From Actinospineispora eucalypti (GTDB lineage: Bacteria; Actinomycetota; Actinomycetes; Mycobacteriales; Pseudonocardiaceae), in NCBI GenBank assembly GCA_014208095.1, contig JACHMT010000005.1, forward strand, positions 186,001 to 250,000: a stretch of 64,000 nt of DNA, given 5' to 3'. The position numbers were made by a program, and so were the translations under genes. The notes beneath the pieces are model-generated. The model was given only the letters and a program-made list of their open reading frames with translations, did no database searches and was not told the DNA's origin. This document shows, one piece after another, positions 2,648 through 56,870 of this stretch (the first letter of the stretch is position 1; each line of letters starts with the position of its first letter).

Positions 2648-3820
2648 ATGACGATCTCGCTGGACGGCCTGCCCGCCGCCCGGGCACCCGGCTGTCCGTT
2701 CGACCCGCCGGCCGGGCTGACCGGGCTGGCCGGACTGACCCGGATGACCTACCCGGACGGCCACGTCGGCTGGCTGGCCACCGGCCACCGGGCGGCGCGC
2801 ACCGTGCTCGCCGACCCCCGGTTCAGCGCCCGCTACGAGCTGATGCACCACCCGTTCCCCGGCGCCGGATCGGGCACGCTGACGCCCGCGCCACCCGGCG
2901 ACATGCTCGGCGTGGACCCGCCCGAGCACACCCGTTACCGGCGCCTGCTGGCCGGCCGGTTCAGCGTGCGCCGGATGCGGCTGCTCACCGAGCGCGCTGA
3001 ACAGCTCACCGGCCAACACCTGGACGCGATGGACCGGGCCGGCCCGCCGGTGGACCTGGTCGCGGAGTTCGCCCGGCCCATCCCGGCGCTGATGATCTGC
3101 GAGCTGCTCGGCGTGCCGTACGCCGACCACGAGTACTTCCAGCGCCATGCCGCGACGGTGAACCGCCACGAGGCCACCGAGGAGCAACGCGCCACCGCGT
3201 ACCTGGAGATTCAGGGGTACCTGCGGGAGCTGGTCGCCGCGAAGCGGGCGGCGCCCACCGACGACCTGCTCGGCGACCTGACCACCAGCGACCTGGACGA
3301 CGAGGAGTTGGCCGGGGTGGGCACGCTGCTGCTCGGCGCCGGCCTGGACACCACCACGAACATGATCGCCCTCGGCGTGTTCGCCCTGCTCCGGTGGCCC
3401 GAGCAGCTCGCCGCGCTGCTCGCCGACCCGGACCGGGCCGTCGAGGAGCTGCTGCGGTACCTGAGCATCGTGCCGTTCCTGGTCCGCGCCGCGCTGGCCG
3501 ACGTGGCGCTGGACGGCCATCTGGTCAAGGCCGGCGAGACGGTCACCGTGGCCGTTCCGGCCGCCAACCGCGACCCCATCCGGTTCGCCGACCCGGACAC
3601 CCTCGACGTGGCGCGACGCGCCACCGGGCACTTGGCCTTCGGCCACGGGGTGCACCAGTGCCTGGGCCAGCAGCTGGCCCGGATGCAGATGCGGGTCGCC
3701 TACCCGGCACTGTTCGCCCGGTACCCCGGTCTGCGCCTGGCCGTGCCGCCCGAACAGGTGCCCCTGCGCACCGACATGGACATCTACGGCGTGCACCGGC
3801 TCCCCGTCGCCTGGGACTGA
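2648..3820 (+). CDS. Cytochrome P450
   Basis: This 390-residue soluble bacterial P450 has the I-helix AGLDTT at 231-236, ExxR at 267-270 (EELLR) and the haem loop [10 protein letters not shown] with Cys338 as thiolate ligand. The N-terminus opens CPFDPPAGL as in CYP105/CYP107-like enzymes. It should be a monooxygenase needing external ferredoxin and reductase; none is adjacent, the nearest ferredoxin being at 33.8 kb. AAAGGAG stands 8 nt before the ATG. It lies in line with two DUF4097 genes, suggesting one transcript. Substrate is unknown. Confidence 0.93.
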
Positions 3821-16017: not shown

Positions 16018-16599
16018 ATGGCGACGAGCACCTACGAGATGAACCGGGAGCGGGTCATCGCCGTCGCGGCCGAGCTGTTCGCCCGCAACGGCTACCACGG
16101 CACCGGCATCGCCGAGCTCGGCAAGGCCGCCGGGCTCGGCCGGGGCGCGCTCTACCACTACATCGAGAGCAAGGAAGCGCTGCTCTACGCGATCAGCAAG
16201 GAACAGGTCGACCGCATGAACACCTTCGCCGAGCGGGCGATGTCGGCCGGCCTGGAACCCGAGGAGCTGCTCCGCACGCTGGCCCGGGGGCTGCTGCGCA
16301 ACATCGCCGACCACCGCGCGCAGTGGGCGGTGTTCTTCCGCGACTACGGCGCGCTCACCGGCGAGCGGCGGGACAAGGTGATCACCGCCCGGGAACGCTA
16401 CGAGGGCTATTGGCGCCAGGCGCTGGACCGGGGGGTGCAGGCGGGGGTGCTGCGCCCGACGCCCCGGCTGTTGGTCAAGGGCATCCTCGGCATGCTCAAC
16501 TACACGTACCTGTGGTTCGACCCGGGCGGCGAGCTCACCCCGGAACAGGTCGCCGACGACTTCCTGGACGCGCTGATGCGCGGCGTTCGGGCTGGCTAA
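16018..16599 (+). CDS. TetR/AcrR-family regulator
   Basis: 193 residues. The N-terminal HTH (VAAELFARNGYHGTGIAELG then LGRGALYHYIESKEALLYA) is typical; the C-terminal region resembles TetR_C domains that sense acyl-CoA-like ligands. The start ATG 16018 is chosen over the in-frame ATG 15988, which lies inside the SDR gene. Only 13 bp separate it from the SDR, so they are co-transcribed. Candidate targets are the palindromes at 15204-15255 and 16600-16616. Confidence 0.9.
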   Translation: MATSTYEMNRERVIAVAAELFARNGYHGTGIAELGKAAGLGRGALYHYIESKEALLYAISKEQVDRMNTFAERAMSAGLEPEELLRTLARGLLRNIADHRAQWAVFFRDYGALTGERRDKVITARERYEGYWRQALDRGVQAGVLRPTPRLLVKGILGMLNYTYLWFDPGGELTPEQVADDFLDALMRGVRAG

Positions 16600-19338: not shown

Positions 19339-20403
19339 TCAGACCTGGTTGCCGACCTTGAAACCCCGCGCGGCCGCGCCGTCGGCCTCGGCCGGCCGGG
19401 TGTAGCTGAAGCCGTCCGCGCCGATGGTCACGTCGGCCTCGCGCGGCTCGGTGCGGGTGTTGATCGGGCGCAACTGCCCGTCCAGGTTCAGCACCGGCGA
19501 CGCCTCGGCGTACCAGGACGGCACCACCGGGTTGCCCCACCAGTCCCGGCGCTGGTTGTCGTGCACGTCCCAGCTGATCACCGGGTTGTCCGGGTCACCG
19601 GTGTAGTAGTCGTGCGTGTAGATCTCCACGCGGTGCCCGTCCGGGTCGCGCAGGTACAGGTAGAACGCGTTGGAGACGCCGTGCCGGCCGGGTCCGCGTT
19701 CGATCTGGTCGGACCGGCGCACCGCGCCCAGGTGGTCGCACAGGTGCAGGATCTGCCCGCGTTCCTGGCTGGCGAACGCGATGTGGTGCAGCCGGGGGCC
19801 GTCCCCGCCGGTGAGCGCGATGTCGTGCACGGTGGGTTTGCGGAACATCCAGGCGGCGTAGACCGTGCCGTCGGCGTCCACGATGTTCTCCGACAGGCGG
19901 AAGCCCAGGTCCTGGTAGTACCGCTGACCGGCCGGCACGTCCGGGACCACCACGTTGAAGTGGTCCAGCCGGCTGATCGCGGCGGCGCCGTGCCGGTCGT
20001 AGCGCTGGGTGAACCGCTCCACGTGGGTGGCGTGGTGGAAGAACTCCACCGGGAACCCGAGCGGGTCCTCGATCCGCACCGCCTCGCCGATGCCCAGGGT
20101 GGCGCCGGCCGGCACCCGCAGCACCCGCACGCCCAGCTCCCCGAAGTACCGCTCGGCGCGGTCCAGCTCCTCCGGCGCGGTGACCCGGTACGCCAGCTTG
20201 GCGCAGGCCGGCACCGGGCCGAGCCGCAGCACCAGCGAGTGGTGCAGGTACTCCTCGAAGGCGCGCAGGTAGATCGCATCCCCGGTCTCCTCGGTGACCA
20301 CCAGGCCGAGCAGGTCGCGGTAGAACCAGCGCGCGGCGGCCAGGTCGGTCACCACCAGCTCGGCGTAGGCGCAGCGCAGGATGTTCGGTGGAGCGGCGGA
20401 CAT
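19339..20403 (-). CDS. hpaD: 3,4-dihydroxyphenylacetate (homoprotocatechuate) 2,3-dioxygenase
   Basis: A 354-residue extradiol dioxygenase of the vicinal oxygen chelate fold, very like the Brevibacterium fuscum enzyme (tail RRDWWGNPVVPSWYAEASPV). Predicted metal ligands are His148 (RLDHFN), His207 (RLHHIAF) and Glu260 (GHRVEIY); His193 (PTVHDIA) and Tyr250 fit the acid/base and second-sphere residues. It opens the catechol ring next to the hydroxyl to give 5-carboxymethyl-2-hydroxymuconate semialdehyde. ATG 20403 is chosen; the frame is open far upstream, but only as a shadow of hpaE. Start lies 23 bp after hpaE. Confidence 0.92.
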   Translation of the reverse strand: MSAAPPNILRCAYAELVVTDLAAARWFYRDLLGLVVTEETGDAIYLRAFEEYLHHSLVLRLGPVPACAKLAYRVTAPEELDRAERYFGELGVRVLRVPAGATLGIGEAVRIEDPLGFPVEFFHHATHVERFTQRYDRHGAAAISRLDHFNVVVPDVPAGQRYYQDLGFRLSENIVDADGTVYAAWMFRKPTVHDIALTGGDGPRLHHIAFASQERGQILHLCDHLGAVRRSDQIERGPGRHGVSNAFYLYLRDPDGHRVEIYTHDYYTGDPDNPVISWDVHDNQRRDWWGNPVVPSWYAEASPVLNLDGQLRPINTRTEPREADVTIGADGFSYTRPAEADGAAARGFKVGNQV

Positions 20404-25100: not shown

Positions 25101-25532
25101 CTACCCGCCGGCGGTGAGGTTGCGCTCGAGTCGGCCGAGCGTCTCGGTGAACCCGTTGAGCTGGTCCTCGCCGATGCCGGCCCGCAGCCTCCGGTCGAAC
25201 TCACGCGCGACGCCGGCCAGCCGTTTGAACAGGTCCTGGCCGGCCCCGGTCAGCTCGACGATGTGCACCCGCCGGTTCGCCGGGTCCCGCCGCCGGGTGA
25301 CCAGGCCGGCGGACTCCATGCCGTTCAGATGGTGGGTCAGCGTGGCGCCCTGAATGCCCACCGCCGAGGCGAGCTCGCGCTGGTTGGCGCCCTGGTGCGT
25401 CTTCAACGCCAACAGGATCAGCCAGATCGGCATCGACCCGCCGGCCCGGCTCATCGCGTCGTCGAACGCCGCGCTGGTCGCCTTCGCGGCCTGGGCCAGC
25501 GCAATGCCGATCGGGGTCCCGGCCGGTCGCAC
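25101..25532 (-). CDS. MarR-family regulator
   Basis: 143 residues. The winged helix NQRELASAVGIQGATLTHHLNG followed by GLVTRRRDPANRRVHIVELT (wing with the conserved DxRxxx pattern) is typical MarR. It starts with GTG 25532 and is divergent from a DHA2-type exporter gene, the classic arrangement in which MarR represses the pump and itself. The likely operator is the large dyad at 25550-25600. It ends 48 bp before the promoter of the homoprotocatechuate operon. Confidence 0.9.
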   Translation of the reverse strand: MRPAGTPIGIALAQAAKATSAAFDDAMSRAGGSMPIWLILLALKTHQGANQRELASAVGIQGATLTHHLNGMESAGLVTRRRDPANRRVHIVELTGAGQDLFKRLAGVAREFDRRLRAGIGEDQLNGFTETLGRLERNLTAGG

Positions 25533-27960: not shown

Positions 27961-28812
27961 TCACCCCTGGACGTCGGTCAGCGCGGGCCCGCGGTTGAGG
28001 TAGCCGGCGTCCACGGGGAAGGTCACGCCGGTGACGTAGCGGGCCTCGTCCGAGGCGAGGTAGACGATGGCGTTGCTGACGTCGACCGGTTCGATGAGCT
28101 GGACGGGCATCGGGTTCTGGTAGAGCGGGCTGCCGGCGATCTCGGGGAACCGCTCCACGAACGCGCCGTACTCGGCGTTGGCCACCATCGGGGTGTTCAC
28201 GCCGGTCGGGTGCACGGTGTTGACCCTGATGTTGTGCTGGGCGAGCTGGCCGGCGTACAGGCGCATGAGCCCGACGACGCCGTGCTTGGCCGCGACGTAG
28301 GCGGCCTGCCCGGGCAGGGTGTTGAGCCCGATGCCGCTGAGGCCGGCGGTGGAGCTGGTGATGATGATCGCGCCGCCCCGGCCGCGCTCGATCATGCCGG
28401 GGATGGTGATCTCGAGGGTGTGCCAGACGCCGGTGAGCAGCGTGTCGATCCCGTCGTGCCAGGCCTGGACCCGCTCGCCCTCGCCGATGACCGGCATGAT
28501 CCCGGCGTTGGGCAGCACGATGTCGACCGGCCCGAACTCGGCGACGCCGGCGTCGTAGGCCGCCTGCAGCCGCGCGCGGTCCCGCACGTCGGCGACGGCG
28601 GTGAGGATTCGGCCGTCGGCGTCCTCGACCAGCCGCTGGGTCTCCTCCAGGTCGGCCTCGGTGGCCAGGGGGTAGAACACCGTGGAGATCTGCTCGCAGA
28701 TGTCCACCGCGATGACGGCCGCACCCTCCTCGGCGAGCCGGATGGCGTGCGAGCGGCCCTGGCCCCGGGCGGCGCCGGTGATGAAGGCGACCTTGCCCTC
28801 GAGTCGACCCAT
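27961..28812 (-). CDS. Mycofactocin-coupled SDR-family oxidoreductase
   Basis: 283 residues. Besides the SDR core (FITGAARGQGRSHA; PNAG; ITSSTAG; YVAAKHG), it has the insertion typical of the mycofactocin-coupled group after the second strand (AVDICEQISTVFYPLATEAD, then EETQRLVEDADGRI). Such enzymes hold NAD(H) tightly and pass electrons to mycofactocin; no mycofactocin biosynthesis gene is in this window. Likely an alcohol-to-ketone oxidation. AGGAGG precedes the ATG. Third gene after DUF35 and the thiolase-like protein. Confidence 0.87.
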   Translation of the reverse strand: MGRLEGKVAFITGAARGQGRSHAIRLAEEGAAVIAVDICEQISTVFYPLATEADLEETQRLVEDADGRILTAVADVRDRARLQAAYDAGVAEFGPVDIVLPNAGIMPVIGEGERVQAWHDGIDTLLTGVWHTLEITIPGMIERGRGGAIIITSSTAGLSGIGLNTLPGQAAYVAAKHGVVGLMRLYAGQLAQHNIRVNTVHPTGVNTPMVANAEYGAFVERFPEIAGSPLYQNPMPVQLIEPVDVSNAIVYLASDEARYVTGVTFPVDAGYLNRGPALTDVQG

Positions 28813-28835
28813 GACGGTTGATCCTCCTGCTGGTT

Positions 28836-30002
28836 CTAGCGGCGGTCTTCGGTGGCGAACAGTGCGGAACTGACCAGCGGGTCGCCCGGGCCGCCGGTCA
28901 TCAGGGACAGGCCGGCCCCCGGCACCTGGTTGCAGGAGGTGCCCCTGATCTGCCGGACGGCCTCGGTGACCAGGCTCATCCCGTGGATGAAGCCCTCGGC
29001 CAGGTTTCCGCCCGAGGTGTTCACCGGCAGGCCGCCCCCGGGGGCGATGAGGTTGTCGAAGGTCAGCACCTCGCCGGCGGTCTCCGGCGTGCAGAAGCCG
29101 TGGTCGATGAGGGCGGCCACGCCCATACCGGTCATGTTCTCGTAGACCTGCACCACGTCCACGTCCTCCGGGCGGTAACCGGACTCCGCCCACAACCGGC
29201 GGGCCACGCCGGCGAAGTTCGCCGAGCCGTACGGCGTGTGGCTCTCCTCGAGGCCCGCGCCGCCCGCGGTGGCCCCGGTGGGCGCGGAGAGCAGGTACGC
29301 CGGCGGCTGGGCCAGGTCGCGGGCCCGCTCCGCGGAGACCAGCACCACGGCCACGGCGGCGTCGCTCTCCCGCGAACAGTCGAACAGGTGGAACGGCTCG
29401 GAGATCCACCGGGAGGCCTCGTAGGTGGCCACGTCCAGCGGTTTGTCGAAGGCCACCGCGTGCGGGTTGCGCTGCGCGTGGAAGTAGGAGGCAAGGGCCA
29501 TCGCGCGCAGCGTCTCGCGGGGGACGCCACCGGCCTCGATCAGCCGTTGGGCGCGCATGGCGCAGATCTGGGCCGGGCCGTCGATGCCGTTGACCAGGTA
29601 CTGGGCCGCCGTGTCGTCCTGGGCCACCGCCACCCGCAGTCGCTGGCCGGCGGACTCGGCGATCGCCCGGTAGACCACGACCACCTCGGCCTGACCGGTC
29701 ACGATCGCGGCGGCGGCCAGCCCCAACGCTCCCGGGATGCCGCCGCCGTGCGTCCAGTTCAGCGCGGAGAACCGCAGCTCGCGGACGCCCAGGGCGGGCG
29801 CCAGCTTCGGCGGGTCGTTCTTGTCCGCGCCGTAGGAGACGAACCCGTCGATGTCGGCGGTGGAGAGCCCGGCATCCGCGCAGGCCTCCGCGATCGCCCG
29901 CAGGCACAGCTTCATCTCCGGGTCGGGCGAGGTGCCGCGCTTGTACATCGGGGTCTGCCCGATGCCGACCACGGCGGTCGCGCCGCGCAGCGGGTGGTTC
30001 AC
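28836..30002 (-). CDS. Thiolase-like lipid-transfer protein (Ltp2-type, candidate retro-aldolase)
   Basis: 388 residues with thiolase-fold landmarks (GGGLPVNTSGGNLAEGFIHG near the C-terminus; VDVVQVYENMTG). The N-terminal nucleophile position reads VVVVYRAIAE and lacks the thiolase Cys, as in SCP-x-related Ltp2 proteins. With a DUF35 partner, Ltp2 proteins in steroid degradation act as retro-aldolases on tertiary hydroxyacyl-CoA. GTG 30002 overlaps the stop of the DUF35 gene (GTGA), strong support for a stoichiometric complex. Exact substrate unknown. Confidence 0.85.
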   Translation of the reverse strand: MNHPLRGATAVVGIGQTPMYKRGTSPDPEMKLCLRAIAEACADAGLSTADIDGFVSYGADKNDPPKLAPALGVRELRFSALNWTHGGGIPGALGLAAAAIVTGQAEVVVVYRAIAESAGQRLRVAVAQDDTAAQYLVNGIDGPAQICAMRAQRLIEAGGVPRETLRAMALASYFHAQRNPHAVAFDKPLDVATYEASRWISEPFHLFDCSRESDAAVAVVLVSAERARDLAQPPAYLLSAPTGATAGGAGLEESHTPYGSANFAGVARRLWAESGYRPEDVDVVQVYENMTGMGVAALIDHGFCTPETAGEVLTFDNLIAPGGGLPVNTSGGNLAEGFIHGMSLVTEAVRQIRGTSCNQVPGAGLSLMTGGPGDPLVSSALFATEDRR

Positions 30003-30445
30003 GACGCTCCTCCCAGCGCCCACCGCACCGCCGGGTAGCCCTTCGACCGGCCCGACGGCGGGTCGATGCTCCCGGTGACCGGGGCACCCACCCGCAGGCC
30101 GTCCTCGGATCCCTTCAGCACGCCCAGCACCCGTGCGTTCCCGGCGCCCGGAATCTCGGCGAGCACCACCACGTAGGGCACGTCCTCGACGCGCTCCTTC
30201 GTGCGGTCGAACGCGTACCAGGACCGGGTCCAGGTGTAGACGGTGCCGACCGGCTCCACCGCGACCCACTCCTGCTCCCAGCCGCCGCAGTGGCCGCAGC
30301 GGAAGTGCGCCGGCCAGCGCCACGTGCCGCAGTCGGGGCACCGCGGCAGCCGGAACTCGCCGGCCGCCAGCCCGTCCCAGTACCCCCGGTCGGCGCCGAT
30401 GCCTCCGGTGATGGTGGTCTCCGCCGCGACGGCGTTGTCCGGCAC
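29999..30445 (-). CDS. DUF35 OB-fold protein with zinc ribbon
   Basis: 148 residues. The N-terminal rubredoxin-like ribbon CPDCGTWRWPAHFRCGHC (four Cys, about 36-53) is followed by an OB-fold (VGTVYTWTRSWYAFDRT, VPYVVVLAEI). DUF35 proteins are obligate partners of thiolase-like enzymes, binding the acyl-CoA. First gene of a three-gene operon; two CCTA-N7-TAGG sites lie 36-84 bp upstream. Confidence 0.9.
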   Translation of the reverse strand: MPDNAVAAETTITGGIGADRGYWDGLAAGEFRLPRCPDCGTWRWPAHFRCGHCGGWEQEWVAVEPVGTVYTWTRSWYAFDRTKERVEDVPYVVVLAEIPGAGNARVLGVLKGSEDGLRVGAPVTGSIDPPSGRSKGYPAVRWALGGAS

Positions 30446-30480: not shown

Positions 30481-30529
30481 CCTAAAAGGTGTAGGCGGGC
30501 GCTAGGAGGCTGCGCCTAATTATTTTAGG
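30481..30529. promoter_or_regulatory. Two CCTA-N7-TAGG operators upstream of the DUF35 operon
   Basis: CCTAAAAGGTGTAGG (30481-30495) and CCTAATTATTTTAGG (30515-30529) share the form CCTA-N7-TAGG. The first is nested in a wider GCCTAC/GTAGGC dyad (30469-30496). The same motif occurs twice in the P450/CoA-ligase promoter region at 35249-35313. Confidence 0.65.
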
Positions 30530-30554
30530 CAAGACACTTCGGCGCCCCCGAGGA

Positions 30555-31001
30555 TCACGGTCGGTGCGCCCGGGCATGGCTTTCTTCCAGGGAGAGGCCG
30601 CGCTGTTGGCCCTCGATGATCGACCAGAATCGCGGGCATCTCATGGGTTCGCCGGCCGGGCACCGCCGGCCGTGCTCGAGTGCGGTGCGGGCCACCTCGA
30701 TGCGGTGCTGCTGCTCGGCCAGCTCGGCCAGTTTGCGGTCGATCAGCTCCCGCTGGGACCGCCGTTCGCCGGCGATGAACCGCCCGATCTCGGCCAGCGA
30801 GAACCCGATCTCGCGGAAGAACAGGATCACGGCGACGTCCCGGACCGCCGACGCGGCATAGCGCCGTCGTCCCGATGCGCGAGCCGTCGGCCGCACCAGG
30901 CCGAGCTCGTCGTAGTACCGCAGTGCGGTGGTGGGCACGCCGGTGCGTTCGGACAGCTCGCCGATCGACAGCAGGCCCGGGGTCAGCTCGGTGTCGGCCA
31001 T
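30555..31001 (-). CDS. MerR-family regulator
   Basis: 148 residues with the MerR helix-turn-helix (LSIGELSERTGVPTTALRYY, then ELGLVRPTARASGRRRYAA), a long dimerisation helix, and a short C-terminus with two cysteines (HGRRCPAGEPMRCPRFW). The Cys pair could sense metal or redox but the spacing does not match SoxR or CueR clearly. Divergent from a methyltransferase gene with a MerR-type promoter between them. Confidence 0.9.
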   Translation of the reverse strand: MADTELTPGLLSIGELSERTGVPTTALRYYDELGLVRPTARASGRRRYAASAVRDVAVILFFREIGFSLAEIGRFIAGERRSQRELIDRKLAELAEQQHRIEVARTALEHGRRCPAGEPMRCPRFWSIIEGQQRGLSLEESHARAHRP

Positions 31002-31032
31002 TTGACTTCAAGCGTACTCGAAGTGCTGTGCT
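31002..31032 (+). promoter_or_regulatory. MerR-type promoter with over-long spacer
   Basis: TTGACT (31002-31007) and TGTGCT (31027-31032) are 19 bp apart, and the dyad ACTTCAAG (31005-31012)/CTCGAAGT (31017-31024) lies between them, as expected for MerR activation by DNA distortion. The methyltransferase ATG (31039) follows 6 nt after the -10. Confidence 0.5.
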
Positions 31033-31038
31033 TGGTTG

Positions 31039-31710
31039 ATGGAGATCAAGGAGAGGGCGCTGGACCGGATCCTGCGGTGGTGGGGTCCGCGCGGGGGGAT
31101 TGCGCAGTTCCATCGGCCGACCGGGGCGGTGGGGCACGTGGCCGGTTGGATCATGGGCCGGCGTTCGTCGAACGTGGCCCGCAACCGCTGGGCGGCGGGG
31201 CTGCTCGACATCCGGCCGGCCGACCGGGTCGTCGAGCTCGGCTGCGGCCCGGGCGTGGCCCTCGCCGCCCTTGCCGGGCGGGCGGCCCGGGGACTGGTGG
31301 TCGGCGTGGACCACTCGGCGGTGATGATCAGCCAGGCCCGCCGCCGCAACCGGGCCGCCGTGCGGGCCGGGCGGGTTCGGCTGGTTCACGCGCCGGTTGA
31401 GGGCCTGTCGTTCGAGGAAGGGCCGTTCGACGCCGCGCTCGCCGTCAACACGGTCGGCATGTGGACCGACCCGGCGGCCCGGCTACGCGAGCTGGGCCGA
31501 ATGCTGCGGCCCGGCGGCCGAATCGCCCTGGTGACCCAGCCCCGCTGTCCCGGTGCCACGGCGGCCACCTCGGCCGCGGCGGCCGGCGAACTGGCTGACC
31601 TGCTCACCGAGGCCGGGTTCGAGCAACTCCGGACCGAGATGCTCGGCATCGACCCGCCGGTGGCCTGCGTCCTCGGGGTCACGCCGGAGCTCAGCGCAGG
31701 TGGTACCTGA
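31039..31710 (+). CDS. Class I SAM-dependent methyltransferase
   Basis: About 223 residues with motif I VVELGCGPGVALA, the acidic end of strand 2 (VGVDHSAVMI) and LRPGGRIALVTQP (post III). The N-terminal part (GHVAGWIMGRRSSNVARNRW) resembles small-molecule methyltransferases beside MerR regulators. ATG 31039 is used; an in-frame TTG lies one codon earlier. Divergent from MerR, which likely activates it. The 3' end overlaps the tail of the GNAT gene by 20 bp. Substrate unknown. Confidence 0.85.
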   Translation: MEIKERALDRILRWWGPRGGIAQFHRPTGAVGHVAGWIMGRRSSNVARNRWAAGLLDIRPADRVVELGCGPGVALAALAGRAARGLVVGVDHSAVMISQARRRNRAAVRAGRVRLVHAPVEGLSFEEGPFDAALAVNTVGMWTDPAARLRELGRMLRPGGRIALVTQPRCPGATAATSAAAAGELADLLTEAGFEQLRTEMLGIDPPVACVLGVTPELSAGGT

Positions 31711-32599
31711 TGTCGGTGCGCTCGTGCTGGAACCCGGCCAGCCGGCAGTCGGTGACCAGGCCCCGGTCCCGCTCGTCCACCGTGATGGCCGCGACCCGGG
31801 AACCGTCCCGCCGGATCGCCGCCATCGCCGCGTCGAGCAGGCCGGCCCGGGTGCCGTTCTCGGCGTGTTCCGGCGCGACGAGCACGGCCGTGATCAGCCC
31901 GGCCGGCCCGAACTCGGTGGGCTCGGCCGCGGTGGCGTCGAACCAGGCCGCGCCGTGCGGTGCGTCCGCCGGCCCGGTCACCAGGACCCGGCCGGCGGCC
32001 GGGGCCGGGTCGCGGCGGCCGCTGGCCAGCCACAACTTGTCCAACCCCGGGCCGGGCGAACCCGGCTGGCCTATCCGTGACCCGGACCCGGCCGGGCGCA
32101 GCGGGGCGATCAGCCGCCAGCGCCGGCGGTCGCGGATGATCCGGGGGTTGTCCAGCCGCCGCCACATGCGGTGCGCGGCGGGGTGGTCGCCCCGGGCCCA
32201 GCAGCGCAGTCGGGTGCACCCGGTGCCGACCCAGCCGTCCGGCCCGGTGACGTCCGTGCCGAGCTGTTCGCCCAGCAGCGTGGAGATGCCGCGGGCCCGC
32301 AGGTCCGGGTGCACCACCATCCGCACCTCCGCGCCTTCCGCCCCGGCGCCGTTCGGTTCGGCGCTGTCCGGTTCTAGGCGCAGGCAGGCGGCCAGCGTCG
32401 GCGGCGGCTCGGTCCGCCCGGTCCGCTCGTCGGGCAGCAGCCAGACCAGCAGGTAGCGGGAGCCCGGCGGCACCGGGTCGGTGAGCGCGAAGGACGGGAA
32501 CCCGGGCTCGGCGTCCCGCTCGGCGGACTCGGTGAGCAGGCGGTCGAGCTCCTCGCGCTCGGCTCCGGTGACCTCTGTGCGCCACTCGTAGTGGATCAC
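31691..32599 (-). CDS. Tandem GNAT acetyltransferase-like protein
   Basis: 302 residues with two GNAT-like halves: the first has a CoA-loop motif VRMVVHPDLRARGISTLLGE (about 110-129), the second ends in a degenerate fold (LITAVLVAPEHAENGTRAGL). The architecture recalls mycothiol synthase MshD but the sequence is not close enough to claim it. Its GTG start overlaps the stop of the Rieske oxygenase gene (GTGA), placing it in the P450-ferredoxin-Rieske operon. The long open frame upstream is a shadow of the Rieske gene. Function unknown. Confidence 0.65.
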   Translation of the reverse strand: MIHYEWRTEVTGAEREELDRLLTESAERDAEPGFPSFALTDPVPPGSRYLLVWLLPDERTGRTEPPPTLAACLRLEPDSAEPNGAGAEGAEVRMVVHPDLRARGISTLLGEQLGTDVTGPDGWVGTGCTRLRCWARGDHPAAHRMWRRLDNPRIIRDRRRWRLIAPLRPAGSGSRIGQPGSPGPGLDKLWLASGRRDPAPAAGRVLVTGPADAPHGAAWFDATAAEPTEFGPAGLITAVLVAPEHAENGTRAGLLDAAMAAIRRDGSRVAAITVDERDRGLVTDCRLAGFQHERTDIRYHLR

Positions 32600-33765
32600 T
32601 GGTTGTCGGTCACCAGCTTGCGCAGCTCGCGGTGGAAGATCTGGTTGGCGATCTCGTTGCGGCCCAGCAGCATCGGGCCCGCGTTGGCGCTCTCCATGCC
32701 CGACTGCGAGGACCGCAGCAGAGGGAAGTCCTCCTGGTGCAGCACCGCCAGCAGGATCTGCCAGTTCTTGTCCCACAGCCTGGTCCAGGTGTCCATCTCC
32801 ATCCCGCTGTCCCGCTGTCGCGGGACCATCAGCCGCATCTCCATCTGCGAGCGGCCGGGCTCCTTCGGGTGCGGCCGGAAGGTGAGCAGCTGGAAGTGGT
32901 CCGGCTGGCGCAGCAGCGTGTGGCAGGGCAGCAGGAAGTGCGTCTCGATCACGTGCTTGGCCAGGCTGTGGTCACCCGGGTCCTCGTCCAGCCAGCGGTC
33001 GATGGACTTGCGGGGGGCCACGAACCGGCAGTGCCGGCCGAAGTCCTCCATCGCCATGATGTTGGTGTGGACGATCTTGCCCGCCGTGTTCGGGTGGGCG
33101 TACTGGATGTGGTAGCCGTCCAGGAACGCGTCCTGCATGATCTTCCAGTTGACCGGCTCGTCGAACGCCTCGCCCCGCACGCAGACCAGGTCACCGAGGT
33201 GGTAGCCGGCCATGATCTCGTCCATCTCCGGTCCGAGCCAGGCCGCCACGTCGATCTCCGCCGTGGCCTCGTCGACGATCCAGACGAACCCGTGCCGCTC
33301 CTCGCAGGGCAGCTCGACCAGCCCCTGCGCGGAGCGGTCGATGTCGCCGAAGGTTCGGTCTCGGGTGATCGCCCGCAGCGTGCCGTCGGTGTTGTACGAC
33401 CAGCGGTGGTAGGCACAGGAGAAGATCCGGCAGCGGCCCCGGTCCCGCTCCTCGAGCAGGGCGCCCCGGTGGCGGCAGAGGTTGACGAAGGCCTTCACCC
33501 CGCCGTCGGCCTGGCGGGCCACGATCACCTTGTTGCGCGGCATCTGGTGGGTGATGAAGTCGTTCGGCTCGGGCAGCTCCGAGCTGTGCGCGATGATCGA
33601 CGGCACCCGGGCGAAGATCGCGCGGTCGGTGGCCGCGATCTCCGGGCTGGTGAACTCCTCGGGGCCGAACGGGCTGATGCTCTCGAACTCGTCGGTGCTG
33701 CCGTTGCGCAGGTGCTCGAGGGCGCGCCTGATCCGGACCTCGCGCGGGGCAATGGGCCTGGTCAT
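32596..33765 (-). CDS. Rieske non-haem iron oxygenase, alpha subunit
   Basis: 389 residues. The Rieske cluster ligands are Cys97/His99 (CRHRG) and Cys117/His120 (CAYH). The mononuclear iron site has His219 and His224 (DGYHIQYAHP) with Asp347 (QEDFP) as likely third ligand. This is a ring- or C-H-hydroxylating oxygenase needing a reductase; no beta subunit or reductase is nearby, so it is probably a homo-oligomeric type served by a shared reductase. It lies between the ferredoxin and the tandem-GNAT gene. Confidence 0.9.
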   Translation of the reverse strand: MTRPIAPREVRIRRALEHLRNGSTDEFESISPFGPEEFTSPEIAATDRAIFARVPSIIAHSSELPEPNDFITHQMPRNKVIVARQADGGVKAFVNLCRHRGALLEERDRGRCRIFSCAYHRWSYNTDGTLRAITRDRTFGDIDRSAQGLVELPCEERHGFVWIVDEATAEIDVAAWLGPEMDEIMAGYHLGDLVCVRGEAFDEPVNWKIMQDAFLDGYHIQYAHPNTAGKIVHTNIMAMEDFGRHCRFVAPRKSIDRWLDEDPGDHSLAKHVIETHFLLPCHTLLRQPDHFQLLTFRPHPKEPGRSQMEMRLMVPRQRDSGMEMDTWTRLWDKNWQILLAVLHQEDFPLLRSSQSGMESANAGPMLLGRNEIANQIFHRELRKLVTDNQ

Positions 33766-33777
33766 GATCCAACCCTC

Positions 33778-33978
33778 CTAGTCCCGCTCCCACGACAATG
33801 CCCGCTCCGGGCATGCGTCGACAGCGGCATCGGCTTCGTCGAACCGGTCGTCGGGTACCGGATCGGCGGTGACGACCGGGTCGCCCTGGTCGTCGGCGTC
33901 GAGCACGTCGGGCGCCACGCTGTAGCAGAGTCCGTGCCCGGCGCAGGCCTTCCGGTCCACCAGCAGATGGTTACCCAT
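33778..33978 (-). CDS. Small ferredoxin, [3Fe-4S] or [4Fe-4S] type (P450 partner)
   Basis: 66 residues. Cysteines are at C-x5-C (CAGHGLC) and CPERAL; the second position of the usual CxxCxxC is His-containing, typical of [3Fe-4S] ferredoxins serving actinobacterial P450s. ATG 33978 overlaps the P450 stop by 8 bp. The longer open frame on this strand covers P450 sequence and is not coding. Likely electron donor to the P450 and perhaps to the Rieske oxygenase. Confidence 0.9.
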
Positions 33979-35224
33979 GGCCGTGCCTTTCGGTGAATAC
34001 GATCGGCAGGCGCTGCACCGACCGGACCTGGCTGGGCAGCACCACCGGCGGGTCGTCCGGGTCGAGGGCGAAGTCCGGCACCCGGTCCAGCAGCTCCTCG
34101 AACGCGATCCGCAGCTCGATGCGGCCCAGGTGCGAGCCGAGGCAGCGGTGCGGGCCGGAGCCGAAGGTGAGGTGCCGGTTCGGGGTGCGGTCCACCCGCA
34201 TCCGGTCGGGATCGTCGAACTCGGCGGCGTCCCGGTTGGCCGAGCAGAGCATGACCAGCAGCTGGTCGCCCTCCTGGACCCGCACGCCGCCGATCTCCAC
34301 GTCGGCGGTGGCCCGGCGGCCGGCGGCGACCTGGGCCTCCAGCCGGAGGATCTCCTCCACGGCGGCCGGAATCCGGGACCGGTCGTCGAGCAGCAGCTTG
34401 CGCTGCTCGGGGTTCTGGGACAGGTGCATGACGCCCCAGGCCAGCGAACCCTGCACGGTGTGCATCCCGCCCATGAGCAGCAGGAAGAAGGAGCGCACCA
34501 GCTCCTCGTCGCTGAGCGGGCGCTCATCGCCGTCCAGGGTGAGCCGCTGGCGCATGATCTCGGAGGTGATGTCGGTGGGCTGCTCGCCCGCCTCGAACGC
34601 GGCGCGGCGCTGGTTGATCACCTTCAGGAAGTACTCGTACATGGCGAACGCCGACCGGGCGCGGGACTCGTTGGCCTGTTCCGGGGTGTCGCCGGGGCGC
34701 CCGTTCAGCGCGATGTCGCTGGCCTCGGCGAACAGTGCGGTGTCCTCCCTCGGCCAGCCCATCAGGGCCAGGAACACCTGCGCGGGCAGCTCGTGGGCGA
34801 ACTCGGAGACGTACTCCGCTTTGCCCCTCGCCGCGAAGCCCTCGATCAGCTCGATCACGATGCGGCGGATCTCGGTTTCCAGTGCGCGCATCCGGGACGG
34901 GCTGAACAGCGGCTGGAGGGCGTGACGGTAGGCGGTGTGGTCCGGCGGGTCGATCTCCAGCGGGATGAACTTGCCCTGCGCCGCGTTGACCAGGTTGTTC
35001 GGGTAGCTGGAGAACAGCTCCGGCCGGCGCAGCACGTCGTGGCACTCCCGGTAGTGGGTGACCACCCAGTGCCCGCCGTGGGCGGTGGACCACACCAGCG
35101 GTCCCCGGCGGGCGAGCGCTCCGACGTGTTCCTGCATGTGGTCCACCGGAATGGTGTGGCTCGGGTCGTACACGTCGAAATCGACGACCAGATTCTCCGG
35201 TACATCGGCAGCCGTGGTGGGCAT
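33971..35224 (-). CDS. Cytochrome P450 with atypical I-helix
   Basis: 417 residues. The haem loop [10 protein letters not shown] gives Cys361; ExxR is at 291-294 (EILR). The I-helix reads GGMHT (252-256), with His255 where an acidic residue usually assists oxygen activation; Thr256 is kept. It leads an operon with ferredoxin, Rieske oxygenase and tandem-GNAT genes, and is divergent from a CoA ligase across a region with two CCTA-N7-TAGG sites. Likely hydroxylates a CoA-linked or free acid, which is inference from context. Confidence 0.92.
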
Positions 35225-35248
35225 CCTCGCCGCTCCTGTCAGCTCGAG

Positions 35249-35313
35249 CCTAATAGTTATAGGCTAATGGTCTCGACTGGGCGAGTCAACGGTTGTAACC
35301 TAAAGCCTATAGG
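35249..35313. promoter_or_regulatory. Two CCTA-N7-TAGG operators between the P450 and CoA-ligase genes
   Basis: CCTAATAGTTATAGG (35249-35263, within GCCTA...TAGGC) and CCTAAAGCCTATAGG (35299-35313, overlapping GCCTATAGGC at 35305-35314). They are 50 bp apart, one nearer each divergent gene, and identical in form to the pair at 30481-30529. Confidence 0.65.
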
Positions 35314-35336: not shown

Positions 35337-36854
35337 ATGGCGACCTCGATCGCATCGGCCCTGGAGTGGTGGGGGCGGACCCAGGGGGACCGGGAAGCGC
35401 TGGTGTTCGCCGACGGCGCGGTGTCCTACCGCGAGCTGCGGGACTGGTCCGGCCGCATCGCCCGGCGGCTGGTGGACGACGGCGTGGCGCCCGGCGACCG
35501 GGTCGCGCTGCTGGGCGGCAACACCGCCGGGTGGGCGGCCGCCGCGTTCGGCGTGATCAAGGCCGGCGCGATTCTCATCCCGCTGAACCCCCGCCTGGTA
35601 GCGGCCGAGATGCACACCTTGCTGGAGTCGGCCGGCGCCGGCGTGGTGATCGCCGACGCCGGGTTCGAGGCCATCCTCAAGGAGGTCGAGGAGCTGGGCG
35701 CGGTGTTCCGGCCGGTCGAGCTGACCGAGCTGGGTGCGCTGCGCGACGGGCCGGCCGAGCCGTTCCGGGTGGAGCGAGGGCCGGACGAGACGCTGGCGGT
35801 GATGTTCACCAGTGGGTCCACCGGCCTGTCCAAGGGCGTCATCCTGACCAACCGGACGCTGCTCAACATCGCCTTCGAGGCGAGCCTGACCGAGGAGGGC
35901 CTGCACCCCGGCGGCCGGACGCTGTTGCTGCTGCCGTTCTGCTTCACCCCGGGACTGGTGTGGGGCCTCTACATGCACGCGGTGCTGGGCGGCACCCTGG
36001 TGGTGGAGGCCGACCTGAACCCCTCGCGGGCGGTGCGTCAGCTCGAGGAACAGCGGATCGAGGCCATCTTCGGGGTGCCGCTGATCTACGAGGTGATGGC
36101 GAAGGCTCCCGAGTTCGCCGGCGCCGACCTTTCCGGCCTGCGCACGGCCACGGTCGGCGGGGCCGCGGTGCCGGGTCCGTTGCTGGAGGCCTGGGCGGAC
36201 AAGGGGGTCGCGCTGCGGCAGATCTACGGCATGGTCGAGGGCGGCGGGACAGTCACCGCCACGCTACGCCACGAGGCCGCCGCGCACCCCGACTCCTGCG
36301 GCATCGGCTCGGTGTTCACCGAGATCAAGGTGGTGCGGGAGGACGGCACCGAGTGCGAGCCGGGTGAGGCGGGCCAGATCCTGGTGCGCGGCCCCTCGGT
36401 CACGCCCGGCTACTGGAACGACCCGGACGGCACCGCCCAGGTGCTCCGGGACGGCTGGCTGCACAGCGGTGACCTGGGCCGGCGCGATGCCGATGGTCGG
36501 CTCACGTTCGTCGACCGGCTCAAGGACCTGATCATTTCCGGCGGGATCAACATCTCCCCGGTGGAGCTGGAGGCGGTGATCGCCCGCATCGACGGCGTCG
36601 AGGAGGTCGCGGTGATCGCGGCCCGGGACGACCGGTTCGGGGAGACCCCGGCGGCCGTCATCTACGGACGGGCCGGGCTGCAACCGGCGGACGTGGTCGC
36701 CGAGTGCGACCGCCGGGTGGCCGGGTACAAGGTGCCGCGCTACGTGGTGGTGCGGGACCGGCCGCTGCCCCGCCTGCCCAACGGCAAGATCTCCAAACGG
36801 GAGATCCGCGCGGAGTACGCCGACATCACCACCCGCCACCCCAGGGTGCGGTGA
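35337..36854 (+). CDS. Acyl-CoA synthetase (class I AMP-forming, fatty-acid/aromatic type)
   Basis: 505 residues: MFTSGSTGLSKGVILTN (adenylate-forming core, about 158-174), IYGMVEGGGT in the acceptor region, SGDLGRRDADGRLTFVDRLKDL, and PNGKISKREI carrying the catalytic Lys. It should form a CoA thioester at the entry to the pathway. ATG 35337 with GAGGAGA upstream is chosen; an in-frame GTG at 35319 lies close to the operator. Divergent from the P450 operon. Confidence 0.9.
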   Translation: MATSIASALEWWGRTQGDREALVFADGAVSYRELRDWSGRIARRLVDDGVAPGDRVALLGGNTAGWAAAAFGVIKAGAILIPLNPRLVAAEMHTLLESAGAGVVIADAGFEAILKEVEELGAVFRPVELTELGALRDGPAEPFRVERGPDETLAVMFTSGSTGLSKGVILTNRTLLNIAFEASLTEEGLHPGGRTLLLLPFCFTPGLVWGLYMHAVLGGTLVVEADLNPSRAVRQLEEQRIEAIFGVPLIYEVMAKAPEFAGADLSGLRTATVGGAAVPGPLLEAWADKGVALRQIYGMVEGGGTVTATLRHEAAAHPDSCGIGSVFTEIKVVREDGTECEPGEAGQILVRGPSVTPGYWNDPDGTAQVLRDGWLHSGDLGRRDADGRLTFVDRLKDLIISGGINISPVELEAVIARIDGVEEVAVIAARDDRFGETPAAVIYGRAGLQPADVVAECDRRVAGYKVPRYVVVRDRPLPRLPNGKISKREIRAEYADITTRHPRVR

Positions 36855-50126: not shown

Positions 50127-52319
50127 TCATCGCCCGCCCTCGTGGAGCGCCGGTACTCGTGCGCCCGGGGTCCTGACCGCGCTCACCGCGGTGTCGACGC
50201 CGTTGACGTGGCCGTTGCCGGACAGCTGGTCGTGGGTCTCGGCCGCGCTCGTGGTCAGCAGGTTGTAGTTGGCGCCGCCGGCGGCATTGGCCAGCCGCCA
50301 CCCGCCGTTGTGCCCCCAGCCCTGCGGGAGGCCGATGTTGCCGGCGGCCATCTCCTCGCTGACCAGTGCCTCGACCTCGATCTCACCCTCGGCGCTGCGA
50401 ATGGTGACCATGTCGCCGCTGTTGATGCCGGCGGCCTCGGCGTCGACCGGGTTGATCCGCAGCCGCTGGCGACGGTCGCCGGTCATCAACTTCTCGACGT
50501 TCAACAGGTAGGTGTTGCAGGTCCGGAGCTCGCGCACGCTGACCAGGCGCAGTGGCAGGTCGCCGTTCACCGATCGCGCCGTGTGCCGGACCAGCTCGTC
50601 GCGCATCTTCGGCTGCTCGAGGTGAACCCGCTTGTCCGGGGTGTACAGCTTCTCGCGCAGCACATCGGTCGGCAGCTCGTCCTCCAGGATCACGCCTTGC
50701 GGGTTCTGCCAGGCCTTTTCCCGGTTCCAGCCGTCCGGCCGCTGGCCGAACAGGTCGCCGCGCGGGCTGATCCGCAGGAACAGGTCGAAGGTCTGTTGCG
50801 GGGTGAGCCGCAGGCCGGTTTCACCCAGCTCGCGGATGAGCGGGAATGGCGAAGGCACGAGGCCGAGGCGTTCGCAGATCTGGTCGACCACCCACCATTC
50901 CTCCCGGCAGCCCGGCGGCGGCTCGACCGTCTTGTCCGCCCACAGCGCGAACGGTTTGATCGTGTGCCCGGAGTTGAGCCAGGGCAGGCAGTCGCGCTCG
51001 ATCCCGAGCACCCCGGGCAGCACGTAGTCGGCGTAACCGGCGGTCTCGGTCTGCTGGACGTCCAGGACGACCAGCAGCTCGAGCTGTTGCAGCGCGCGCC
51101 CGAGCTCGCCCGAGCCCGGCACGCTCATCGCCGGGTTCCCGGCGTTCACGATCAGGGCCTTCAGCTGGCCCTTGCCGGGTGTGGTGATCTCCCTGGCCAT
51201 GCTGACCGCGGGCGCGGTACCGAGAACCTCGGGGAATCCGTCGACCCGGGTCCGCCAGGTGTCATAGGTCGCCGCGCCCGCGAGGTGGGTGATCAGCTGC
51301 AGGTCGATGAACTCCTCGCCGAAGACGTAACCGCCGACCCGGTCCAGGTTCCCGGTGACGATGTTGAGCGCGTCCATCAGGTACTTCGCCAGGGTTCCGG
51401 CGCTGCCCAGGGAGATGCCGCAGCGGCCGTAGGCGGCGGCCCGGGGCGTGGTCGCGAAGTCGTGCGCGAGCGCGCGAATGGTCGCGGCCGGAATCCCCGT
51501 TCGATGCTCGGTGGACTCCGGGGTGTGCCCGCCGACCATGTCGCGGATGAAGCGGCCGCCGTCCGTCGTCTGCCGCTCCAGCGCATCCTGGTCGGCCAGC
51601 CCGCCGGCGAAGATTGTCTGCAGTAGTGAGGCCATGAGCAGCACGTCTTCGTCCGCGCGGATCGGGAGCCAGTCGAACGCGGCCGCCGTCTCGGACCGGC
51701 GCGGGTCGATCACCACCACCCGGCCGCCCCGGCGCACCACCCCGGTGAAGTGGTCGCGCGCCCTCGGCGCGGTCAGCATCGACGAGTGCGAGATGAGTGG
51801 GTTCGCGCCGAACACGAGCAGGAAGTCGGTCCGGTCGATGTCCGGAATGGGATTGATCAGCGGATGCCCGTAGAGCATCGACCCGATCGCCCAGTAGTTG
51901 TTGATGTCGACCGAGGACGACGTGTAGTTGTGCGGAGAGCCCAACGCGGCGCACATTCCGGCGTCCCAGAAGAAGCCGCTGTAGTTGTCCAGGAGCGCGT
52001 GGCCGCCGAAGAGACCGACGCTGTCGCCGCCGTCGCGGTCGATGATCGTCCGGAGCCGGTCGGCGATGTCGTCGAGTGCGTCGTCCCAGGTGACCGGGAC
52101 CAGGTTGCCCGAGGGGAGCCGCCTGAGCGGTTCCACGACGCGGTCCGGGTCGGCCGCGATACTCGGGTACGCGATCCCCTTGGGGCAGGCGAAGCCCTTG
52201 GACAACGGCGAGTTCTTGTCCGGCCGGACCTTGACCGCCTTTCCGCCCTCCACCGTGACGACGATTCCGCACTGGCCTTCGCAGATGCCGCAATAGGTGA
52301 TCTTCTCCTGGGTGGGCAT
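50127..52319 (-). CDS. Molybdopterin oxidoreductase with N-terminal [4Fe-4S] site (DMSO reductase superfamily)
   Basis: 730 residues. The cluster ligands are Cys10, Cys13, Cys17 and Cys45 (C-x2-C-x3-C-x27-C), followed by three Mo-bisMGD domains (GANPLISHSSM; VIDPRRSETA; INPVDAEAAGINSGDMVTI near the end). In the region that normally supplies the metal ligand (about 130-140, SSSVDIN) there is no Cys; Ser134-136 or Asp138 are candidates. No Tat signal is seen, so it is cytosolic. ATG 52319 is chosen; the open frame upstream is antisense to the mini-ferredoxin. The size matches acetylene hydratase-like and BisC-like enzymes, but the reaction is unknown. Confidence 0.87.
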   Translation of the reverse strand: MPTQEKITYCGICEGQCGIVVTVEGGKAVKVRPDKNSPLSKGFACPKGIAYPSIAADPDRVVEPLRRLPSGNLVPVTWDDALDDIADRLRTIIDRDGGDSVGLFGGHALLDNYSGFFWDAGMCAALGSPHNYTSSSVDINNYWAIGSMLYGHPLINPIPDIDRTDFLLVFGANPLISHSSMLTAPRARDHFTGVVRRGGRVVVIDPRRSETAAAFDWLPIRADEDVLLMASLLQTIFAGGLADQDALERQTTDGGRFIRDMVGGHTPESTEHRTGIPAATIRALAHDFATTPRAAAYGRCGISLGSAGTLAKYLMDALNIVTGNLDRVGGYVFGEEFIDLQLITHLAGAATYDTWRTRVDGFPEVLGTAPAVSMAREITTPGKGQLKALIVNAGNPAMSVPGSGELGRALQQLELLVVLDVQQTETAGYADYVLPGVLGIERDCLPWLNSGHTIKPFALWADKTVEPPPGCREEWWVVDQICERLGLVPSPFPLIRELGETGLRLTPQQTFDLFLRISPRGDLFGQRPDGWNREKAWQNPQGVILEDELPTDVLREKLYTPDKRVHLEQPKMRDELVRHTARSVNGDLPLRLVSVRELRTCNTYLLNVEKLMTGDRRQRLRINPVDAEAAGINSGDMVTIRSAEGEIEVEALVSEEMAAGNIGLPQGWGHNGGWRLANAAGGANYNLLTTSAAETHDQLSGNGHVNGVDTAVSAVRTPGARVPALHEGGR

Positions 52320-55320: not shown

Positions 55321-56274
55321 TCAGAACGTGGCGATCGGGTTGACCGGGCTGCCGGACGTGCCGGCGAAGCGGACCGGCGCGACCGCGAGGTGGAAGTCCC
55401 ACTGGCCGAGCCCGGCGGCCGTGGTCGCGCACGCCTCCAGGTCGCAGTTGTCCAGCAGCCACAGGCCCATCGCGACCAGGCCCACGGCGTGAACCGGCAT
55501 CAACACGTCGTCGTAGCCCGACGGCTGCACGTCCTGGGGGGTGTCGGCGCCGATCAGCGCCACTTCCCGTTCGTGCAGCCACGGCAGGCAGGACGCGTGC
55601 CAGCCGGCCTGGGTGAAACCGCCGGCCGGACCGGCCTCGTGCCGGACGCGGCCGTAGCCGGTCCGCAGGAGTACCGCATCGCCGGATCGCACCCGCACGC
55701 CCTGGCGGCGCTCGGCCTCCTCGAGATCCTCGGGAAACACGCCCTGCCCCGGTTCCAGCCACGGCACGTCACGGGCCCTGGCGACGTCCAGCAGGACACC
55801 CCGCGTGACGATCCCGTTGGCCGCCGCCGTGACGGCCGCCCACGCCGATCCCGTCGTGGGGTCGACCAGCGAGTGCGGCCGCCCGTTGTACATCGTGCCG
55901 TCCCAGAAGAGGTGGCACGGCGAGTCGACGTGGGTGATGGTGTTGCCGTGGAACAGGAGGCCGAGCCGCTCGTTCGAGAAGCCCCAGCGCCGGTCGGCGT
56001 GGAACGCGGGCGGCATGCCCTCGGCACCCGGCATGTCGGCGGCGCACGGGCAGGTCGTCGTCGAGCGCTCCATCTCCTCCGGCACGGCGACCTCCCACGC
56101 GCACGACACGCTCCGGCCGTGGCGCACCGACCGCGCCGCGTCCAGCCGGACGTCGTCGGTGATGTGGTTCAGGGTGCCGAGCTCGTCGTCGTCGCCCCAC
56201 CGTCCCCAGTTCGACAGCGTGCTGAAGTACCCGAGCACGTCGTCCTGGGTGGGCATCGGTCGCTCTGTCGTCAT
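55321..56274 (-). CDS. Cyclase-family protein (kynurenine formamidase-like fold)
   Basis: 317 residues. The metal-binding motif of the family, HxGTHxDxPxH, appears as HGNTITHVDSPCH (about 109-121), with Thr in place of the motif's Gly-Thr order partly shifted; a later His/Glu region completes the site. Family members are metal-dependent hydrolases (formamidase, isatin hydrolase, and related amidases). ATG 56274 overlaps the TetR stop (ATGA), so TetR and the cyclase form one transcript with the carboxyltransferase. Substrate unknown. Confidence 0.85.
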   Translation of the reverse strand: MTTERPMPTQDDVLGYFSTLSNWGRWGDDDELGTLNHITDDVRLDAARSVRHGRSVSCAWEVAVPEEMERSTTTCPCAADMPGAEGMPPAFHADRRWGFSNERLGLLFHGNTITHVDSPCHLFWDGTMYNGRPHSLVDPTTGSAWAAVTAAANGIVTRGVLLDVARARDVPWLEPGQGVFPEDLEEAERRQGVRVRSGDAVLLRTGYGRVRHEAGPAGGFTQAGWHASCLPWLHEREVALIGADTPQDVQPSGYDDVLMPVHAVGLVAMGLWLLDNCDLEACATTAAGLGQWDFHLAVAPVRFAGTSGSPVNPIATF

Positions 56275-56870
56275 CCCGGCATCGCCTCCTCCGTCCGTCC
56301 CAGCGCCAGCGTGATGAACCGGTCGACGGTGCGCCGCGCGGTCTGCTCGTCCCGGTCCACCAGGAACCGGATCACCACCCCGTCCAGCGCGGCCACCAGC
56401 AACTCGATCAGCGGGTCCAGCTGGGTCGGGTCCAGATCCTCGCCGGTCGCCCGGGCCAGCGCCAGGCGGCAGACGTCGCGGTAGCCCTGGTAGATGGATG
56501 CGGCGAACCCGGACGCCGAGGGGGTGCGGGCGGCCCAGAGCATCAGCTCGAACTGGGCGATGCCCAGGGTGCGGTCGCCGACGACCCAGTCGAGGAAGCC
56601 GGTCATCAGGCCGCGCACGCAGGCCTCCAGGCCGCGGCCCTCGGGCACCTGGCCGGAGAGCTGTTCGGTCATCAGGTCGACCCAGTGCCGGTAGACGGCG
56701 GCGAACAGCGCCTCTTTGTCCTCGAACGTGTAGTGCACGCTGGCCAGTGGCGCGCCCGCCTGCTTGGCGATGCGCCGGATCGAGGCGCCCTCCAGGCCGG
56801 CCTCGCGCATCACCACGATGGCCGCCTCGACGATCTGCCGACGGCGCTCCCGCGCCGGCACGTGCGGCAT
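56271..56870 (-). CDS. TetR-family regulator
   Basis: 199 residues. HTH region: IVEAAIVVMREAGLEGASIR followed by RIAKQAGAPLASVHYTFEDK. The C-terminal domain (LIELLVAALDGVVIRFLVDR) fits TetR_C members near BetI/YcdC types. ATG 56870 is chosen because the HTH begins just after it; the frame is open to 57257 without a credible start. Divergent from the membrane protein gene across a strong dyad, and leading the cyclase-carboxyltransferase operon. Confidence 0.88.
   Translation of the reverse strand: MPHVPARERRRQIVEAAIVVMREAGLEGASIRRIAKQAGAPLASVHYTFEDKEALFAAVYRHWVDLMTEQLSGQVPEGRGLEACVRGLMTGFLDWVVGDRTLGIAQFELMLWAARTPSASGFAASIYQGYRDVCRLALARATGEDLDPTQLDPLIELLVAALDGVVIRFLVDRDEQTARRTVDRFITLALGRTEEAMPG

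Follow-up and report, generated by a model that had tools for sequence, protein, structure and literature searches.

The 64-kb stretch of DNA analysed here (the window; C5:186001-250000 of G000, its own genome of 9.62 Mb in 7 contigs) contains exactly four copies of the 15-bp palindrome CCTA-N7-TAGG, two in front of an operon for DUF35, thiolase-like and mycofactocin-type short-chain dehydrogenase/reductase (SDR) proteins and two between a P450-ferredoxin-Rieske-GNAT operon and a divergent coenzyme A (CoA) ligase gene. On the sequence comparisons set out below, the four sites are very probably operators of a TetR-family repressor with a TetR_C_1 domain, which is encoded outside the window on contig C4. 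An earlier note on this DNA had located the four sites and described their neighbours, and both descriptions are exact: there is no fifth exact match in the window, and the neighbouring genes are as named. The same note, which left unmentioned the MerR gene bordering the first pair, had seen no TetR gene in the block and had suggested that the binder might be encoded outside it. The block indeed contains none, the two TetR-like genes of the window lying apart from it (16018-16599, + strand, and 56271-56870, - strand), and the predicted binder does fall outside. The candidate catabolic regulon that it proposed is likewise supported on sequence evidence.

The pairing of sites in both promoter regions had been called unlikely by chance, and controls agree. 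In 100 dinucleotide shuffles of the window the exact motif occurred 0.11 times on average and at most twice, against four observed (Poisson P 5.6e-6). The whole genome holds 15 exact copies, 11 of them outside the window, and at that outside rate the two intergenic gaps holding the pairs, 221 bp together, would be expected to contain 0.00025 sites. CCTA-Nk-TAGG with spacers from N0 to N20 is found 125 times genome-wide, 15 times at N7 versus a mean of 5.5 at the other spacers. When 12 letter arrangements of the half-site were counted at N7 in the intergenic DNA of the window, CCTA gave all four hits and each of the other 11 gave none.

The sites also recur in relatives that keep the P450, as the earlier note had expected of a real regulon. 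In a search of 99 relatives for the window P450, nine have a best place with 59-68% identity (next best 38-39%). Six of these (G093, G030, G024, G057, G058 and G010) carry intergenic CCTW-N7-WAGG (W = A or T) in the cluster. The other three, which are mutually similar (G046, G002 and G037), have no such site in the loci around the P450 (L047, L048 and L050) and instead nine intergenic sites of the looser form YCTW-N7-WAGR, with YCTW/WAGR at other spacers from 0 to 15 occurring there six times at N0, three times at N12, twice at N15 and otherwise not at all. In each of the three, a TetR gene of the cluster region has a CCTTATGCAATTAGG site next to it. Taken over the 13 cluster loci of the nine relatives, CCTW-N7-WAGG is present at 23 intergenic and 2 coding positions, compared with 0-4 intergenic sites at every other spacer from 0 to 20 and 0-3 for permuted half-sites at spacer 7. 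Among the 23 are an overlapping pair (L046), a GC-rich, chance-looking site (L052:6427) and near-identical sites from the closely related G024 and G030. This test was not blind, because the W-form was picked after viewing the relatives' sites. As a separate observation, G030:C111 (L049, L055, L058) and G024 (L051, L057) show several P450, Rieske and CoA-ligase copies and several subfamily TetRs side by side, as if the cluster had been duplicated.

The candidate binder begins with a TetR_N domain (PF00440, 38.8 bits against a cut-off of 24), and its AlphaFold model (pLDDT 88.7, pTM 0.84) is an all-helical TetR fold for which Foldseek returns TetR class D structures (e.g. 6fts, TM 0.77/0.83), as does a sequence search of the PDB. 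Among 397 sampled genomes of the order, its closest relatives found share 63-66% identity with it (next best 50-51%); they are the cluster TetRs of P. spinosispora DSM 44797 (G010) and of G093, a genome from a different family. In both, the TetR gene lies inside a P450/Rieske/CoA-ligase cluster, where a site separates it from a divergent SDR gene, and all three TetRs, that on C4 included, have a site nearby (L074:10177, L046:8185 and L104:5856). The site at the C4 gene, the variant CCTAACAGTTTAAGG, falls in the gap that separates this gene from a divergent 2Fe-2S ferredoxin gene. It is 124 bp upstream of the former and 58 bp upstream of the latter, which places a predicted operator in the regulator's own promoter region, as in autoregulation. 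Within its own genome the C4 protein alone reaches E <= 1e-25 to the subfamily query, and the two TetR-like window genes match the subfamily profile weakly, at 22.7 and 26.7 bits versus 280 for the C4 protein.

A genome scan had been proposed as a check, with hits expected in the two gaps and at a regulator's own promoter. The consensus refined on relatives, CCTWA-N5-TWAGG, which catches only one of the four window sites, occurs at three places in this genome: window 30515, the C4 TetR promoter region, and C3:1017373, where it lies 8 bp before a response-regulator gene start and is probably a chance match. A scan with CTAANNNNNTTAG was uninformative, with 8 places (1 in the window) versus 19 for its reversed control. 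P. spinosispora has three places for the refined consensus, all on the cluster contig (TetR, P450 and an MlaE/Mce-type transport operon). Across 62 genomes of the genus, the 10 that carry the TetR subfamily have 16 places between them and the remaining 52 have 14. By coordinates, 14 of the 16 are near the P450 cluster or a subfamily TetR (G454, seemingly almost a copy of G024, being placed by analogy with it), the exceptions being C3:1017373 and one place in G058. Of the 60 genus genomes covered by both searches, the 9 with the TetR (E <= 1e-25) are also the 9 with the P450 (at least 59% identity), a co-occurrence whose Fisher value of 6.8e-11 is inflated because the genomes are related by descent; absences in such searches are not absolute, since limited candidates were scored per genome (49 in the TetR search). 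More independent than the cluster-locus test is the spacer test on TetR loci outside Pseudonocardia, 73 of the best 80 out of 313 from the named genome collection, in which spacer 7 gave 16 sites within about 400 bp of the TetR gene on either side, each of the 20 other spacers giving 0-4. The 16 stem from 13 loci, two from Rhodococcus and two from Williamsia having identical sites. In Aeromicrobium ginsengisoli a site directly downstream of a subfamily TetR gene (L144:6717-6731, CCTATCCTTGATAGG) resembles the classic tetO sequence.

Besides the shared descent behind the Fisher value, several observations call for caution or weigh against the C4 protein as the binder of functional operators. 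The reversed control pattern outnumbers the exact motif genome-wide, 143 to 15, because CCTA and TAGG words are rare in this GC-rich genome; the case therefore rests on shuffles, clustering, spacer and conservation rather than on raw density. The reversed control is also as common as the refined motif in the TetR-bearing genomes (19 versus 16; 55 versus 14 in the 52 TetR-less ones, the control counts being summed by hand). The own-promoter site is a variant with one mismatch from the motif, and in this genome the C4 gene and the cluster are not linked. Near-identical relatives (G024/G030 and G002/G037/G046) contribute some of the site counts. A CCTW site is near the TetR gene in only those 13 of the 73 loci (15 of all 80), and 61 of the 80 are without even YCTW-N7-WAGR within 250 bp upstream. 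A sigma-70 scan at the four sites gave no sigma-70-like promoter. Lastly, in the account of tetO contacts in PMC7102968, changing TetR Arg28 to Ala abolishes tetO binding, and the C4 protein must therefore compensate for its loss of Arg28.

Among other explanations, the one that survives best, though it is unlikely, is that another, more distant TetR paralogue of the C4 protein in this genome binds the sites, alone or jointly. The genome has further TetR homologues with 28-31% identity to the G093 cluster TetR, and several relatives have two to four subfamily members beside site-bearing clusters; against this stand the subfamily search, which singles out the C4 protein, and three such paralogues (L075-L077) near which no exact or W-form site was seen except one coding match. 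The MerR-family protein is a slightly poorer candidate. Its gene adjoins the first site pair and MerR proteins bind inverted repeats, but no homologue at E <= 1e-4 was found in the 13 cluster loci of the nine site-bearing relatives, the rest of those genomes not having been searched. The MarR-family protein (25101-25532), about 5 kb off and of a family whose members bind palindromes, is very unlikely: the same 13 loci hold no homologue and its gene is without an exact site nearby. Both neighbours were rejected for the lack of homologues in the relatives' cluster loci. It is more improbable still that AT-rich intergenic DNA produced these palindromes by chance. Random-looking sites do occur among the 15 in the genome, 3 of the 11 outside the window being intragenic (L007, L009 and L010, by our own gene calls from a codon-usage script), and the window count with one mismatch allowed, 8 versus 4.1 expected, is unremarkable; the shuffle, spacer and permutation controls and the recurrence in relatives contradict this explanation. 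Known actinobacterial regulators, the iron sensor IdeR or the cholesterol regulators KstR/KstR2, were rejected and have next to no probability left, for although TTAGG/CCTAA words occur in IdeR boxes and KstR and KstR2 govern P450/thiolase catabolism, they are contradicted by box scans, with 0 matches at up to 3 mismatches to what we take to be the IdeR/DtxR box (TWAGGTWAGSCTWACCTWA), 0 in the window to the KstR2 box (AnCAAGnnCTTGnT), and none in either promoter region to the presumed KstR box (TnnAACnnGTTnnA). The lone window match to that KstR box is at 19661-19674 (TAGAACGCGTTGGA; 0.02 expected).

Table 1. Predicted operators, candidate repressor and neighbouring genes (window coordinates unless a contig is given).
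Feature	Position	Strand	Remarks
Operator A1 (predicted)	30481..30495	.	CCTAAAAGGTGTAGG; centre 43 bp from DUF35 start
Operator A2 (predicted)	30515..30529	.	CCTAATTATTTTAGG; centre 77 bp from DUF35 start
Operator B1 (predicted)	35249..35263	.	CCTAATAGTTATAGG; centre 32 bp from P450 start
Operator B2 (predicted)	35299..35313	.	CCTAAAGCCTATAGG; centre 31 bp from CoA-ligase start
Candidate TetR-family repressor	G000:C4:898402-899052	-	TetR_N + TetR_C_1; outside window
DUF35 protein (ChsH2-type zinc ribbon + OB fold)	29999..30445	-	PF12172, PF01796 (Pfam); first gene of operon behind A1/A2
Thiolase-like (lipid-transfer-type) protein	28836..30002	-	PF22691; NCBIfam PRK07855 below its cut-off
Mycofactocin-coupled SDR oxidoreductase	27961..28818	-	TIGR03971 above its cut-off
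Cytochrome P450	33971..35224	-	First gene of operon behind B1
Ferredoxin, single-cluster type	33778..33972	-	PF13459, PF13370
Rieske oxygenase alpha subunit	32596..33765	-	PF00848, PF00355
GNAT-like protein	31691..32590	-	PF00583, just above cut-off
AMP-binding CoA ligase	35337..36854	+	PF00501; behind B2, divergent from P450 operon
MerR-family gene	30555..31001	-	PF13411; upstream of A2, borders A1/A2 pair

The centres of A1 and A2 are 34 bp apart and those of B1 and B2 50 bp, and at all four sites gene starts are 31-82 bp from the site centres. The GNAT-like gene adjoins the Rieske gene in relatives too. An inverted repeat GACT-GGGCG-AGTC was seen by eye between B1 and B2 (35264-35298); by the same judgement it might contain back-to-back -35 elements of the divergent promoters. 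Also by eye, TTGACT-N17-TAGCCT for the P450 and TCGACT-N17-TAACCT for the CoA ligase would put -10 elements over B1 and B2, although we do not claim these promoters as established.

Given the C4 protein as repressor, we infer binding, repression (not activation), ligand and substrate as follows, the most likely scheme being repression of catabolic promoters that is relieved by a pathway metabolite. Each 15-bp palindrome would be occupied by a TetR dimer, and three promoters would thereby be blocked: that of the DUF35-thiolase-SDR operon, that of the P450-ferredoxin-Rieske-GNAT operon and that of the divergent CoA-ligase gene. The repressor would target its own promoter region too, which is common to the divergent 2Fe-2S ferredoxin gene, and would be released by the pathway substrate or a CoA-ester intermediate. 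The nearest solved relatives of the window P450 are of the CYP101D, CYP125 and P450cam/P450cin types, and in P. spinosispora a site (L054:11946-11960, G010:C13:152945; CCTAACACATTTAGG) is found in the gap that separates an ABC ATPase gene from the MlaE/Mce-type permease operon lying downstream of the P450. The combination of P450, Rieske, CoA-ligase, DUF35/thiolase-like and mycofactocin SDR genes with this MlaE/Mce-type importer suggests breakdown of a hydrophobic terpenoid or steroid-like compound.

Two further places in the genome are possible members of the regulon. At C2:1544788 (L186:3752-3766 and 3783-3797) CCTATATGTATTAGG is followed, 31 bp on, by CCTACACTTTTTAGA upstream of a molybdopterin oxidoreductase, and at C4:448220 (L060:9721-9735) the centre of an exact site, CCTATTCTCGTTAGG, is 48 bp upstream of another P450. 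The genus contains 13 further matches to the oxidoreductase at E <= 1e-100, six with YCTW-N7-WAGR just upstream (G024, G454, G030, G002, G046 and one of two in G037) and seven without (G010, G049, G027, G038, G023, the second in G037 and a second copy in the own genome at window 50172-52310). All six site-bearing oxidoreductases are in P450-cluster genomes (G454 by analogy), yet P. spinosispora has the P450 cluster and an oxidoreductase without a site. Extending these observations, we would raise only tentatively the idea that an actinobacterial branch of the TetR lineage, marked by the reading head SLPRL...PSLYHHF and the loss of Arg28 and Gln38, uses tetO-like CCTWA-N5-TWAGG to control P450/Rieske/molybdopterin-oxidoreductase/mycofactocin catabolic clusters. 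If true, the antibiotic-resistance TetR would have branched off from a wider group of catabolic sensors sharing an operator geometry. Independently of this idea, the four palindromes with the C4 protein give an undescribed Pseudonocardia catabolic pathway a candidate regulon that can be tested and a repressor candidate with a name. The concerted change at Arg28/Gln38 and at +2/+3 offers a clean test of how tetO-type recognition evolved, and the TetR/operator pair could serve as a new repressor/operator part.

Compared with known systems, the predicted operator is like tetO in being 15 bp long with CTA/TAG equally far from the centre (T+4, A+5, G+6), and unlike it in having no G+2/A+3 preference and in ending in CC/GG. 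A matrix of 33 sites has T+4 at 70% and A+5, G+6 and G+7 at 100%, the 100% values and the A/T at +4 following from the site-picking pattern; +3 is T in 68% and A in 15%, and +2 is mixed (G 26%). The shared centre distance and the loss at +2/+3 do not follow from that pattern. The C4 protein shares TetR_N, TetR_C_1 and the fold with TetR, and in an ungapped alignment residues 39, 42 and 44 (Pro, Tyr, His) are unchanged, whereas Arg28 is Pro, Gln38 is Thr, and residues 27, 37, 40, 43 and 48 differ too (Met, Arg, Ser, His and Arg). In 26 subfamily members PSLYHHF shows no variation. In the contacts set out in PMC7102968, Arg28 and Gln38 are the sole side chains that hydrogen-bond tetO bases, at +2 (G) and +3 (A), and the contacts of Pro39, Thr40, Tyr42 and Trp43 are of the van der Waals type, that of Tyr42 being with T+4. 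On the aligned sequences, then, the changes in the reading head (Arg28, Gln38) match the changes in the operator (+2/+3). The predicted targets are catabolic genes and not tetA, and the cluster TetRs of three relatives, at 81, 78 and 80 bits, do not reach the tet-repressor equivalog cut-off of NCBIfam NF010319 (265 bits). The exact motif strings were found in no paper, and none among the matches listed was recognised as describing the cluster or the operator.

The predicted system nevertheless belongs to a familiar class, that of TetR-type regulators of catabolism and their operators, and is comparable to KstR2. As described in PMC3068626, KstR2 of mycobacteria and rhodococci is a TetR-type repressor whose short palindrome occurs at a few promoters within a catabolic gene cluster, its own among them, with sites common to divergent promoters; the differences are its box and, in the present case, the lack of linkage between regulator and cluster. 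AmtR of Corynebacterium glutamicum, as its operator is presented in PMC2723105, is a TetR-type regulator whose CTAT half-site is shared with tetO and which does not need the G-C pair read by Arg28; its spacer (tttCTATN6AtAGat/aA) and its nitrogen-control targets are different. For a CTAT half-site that lacks the base pair read by Arg28, AmtR thus sets a precedent (PMC2723105).

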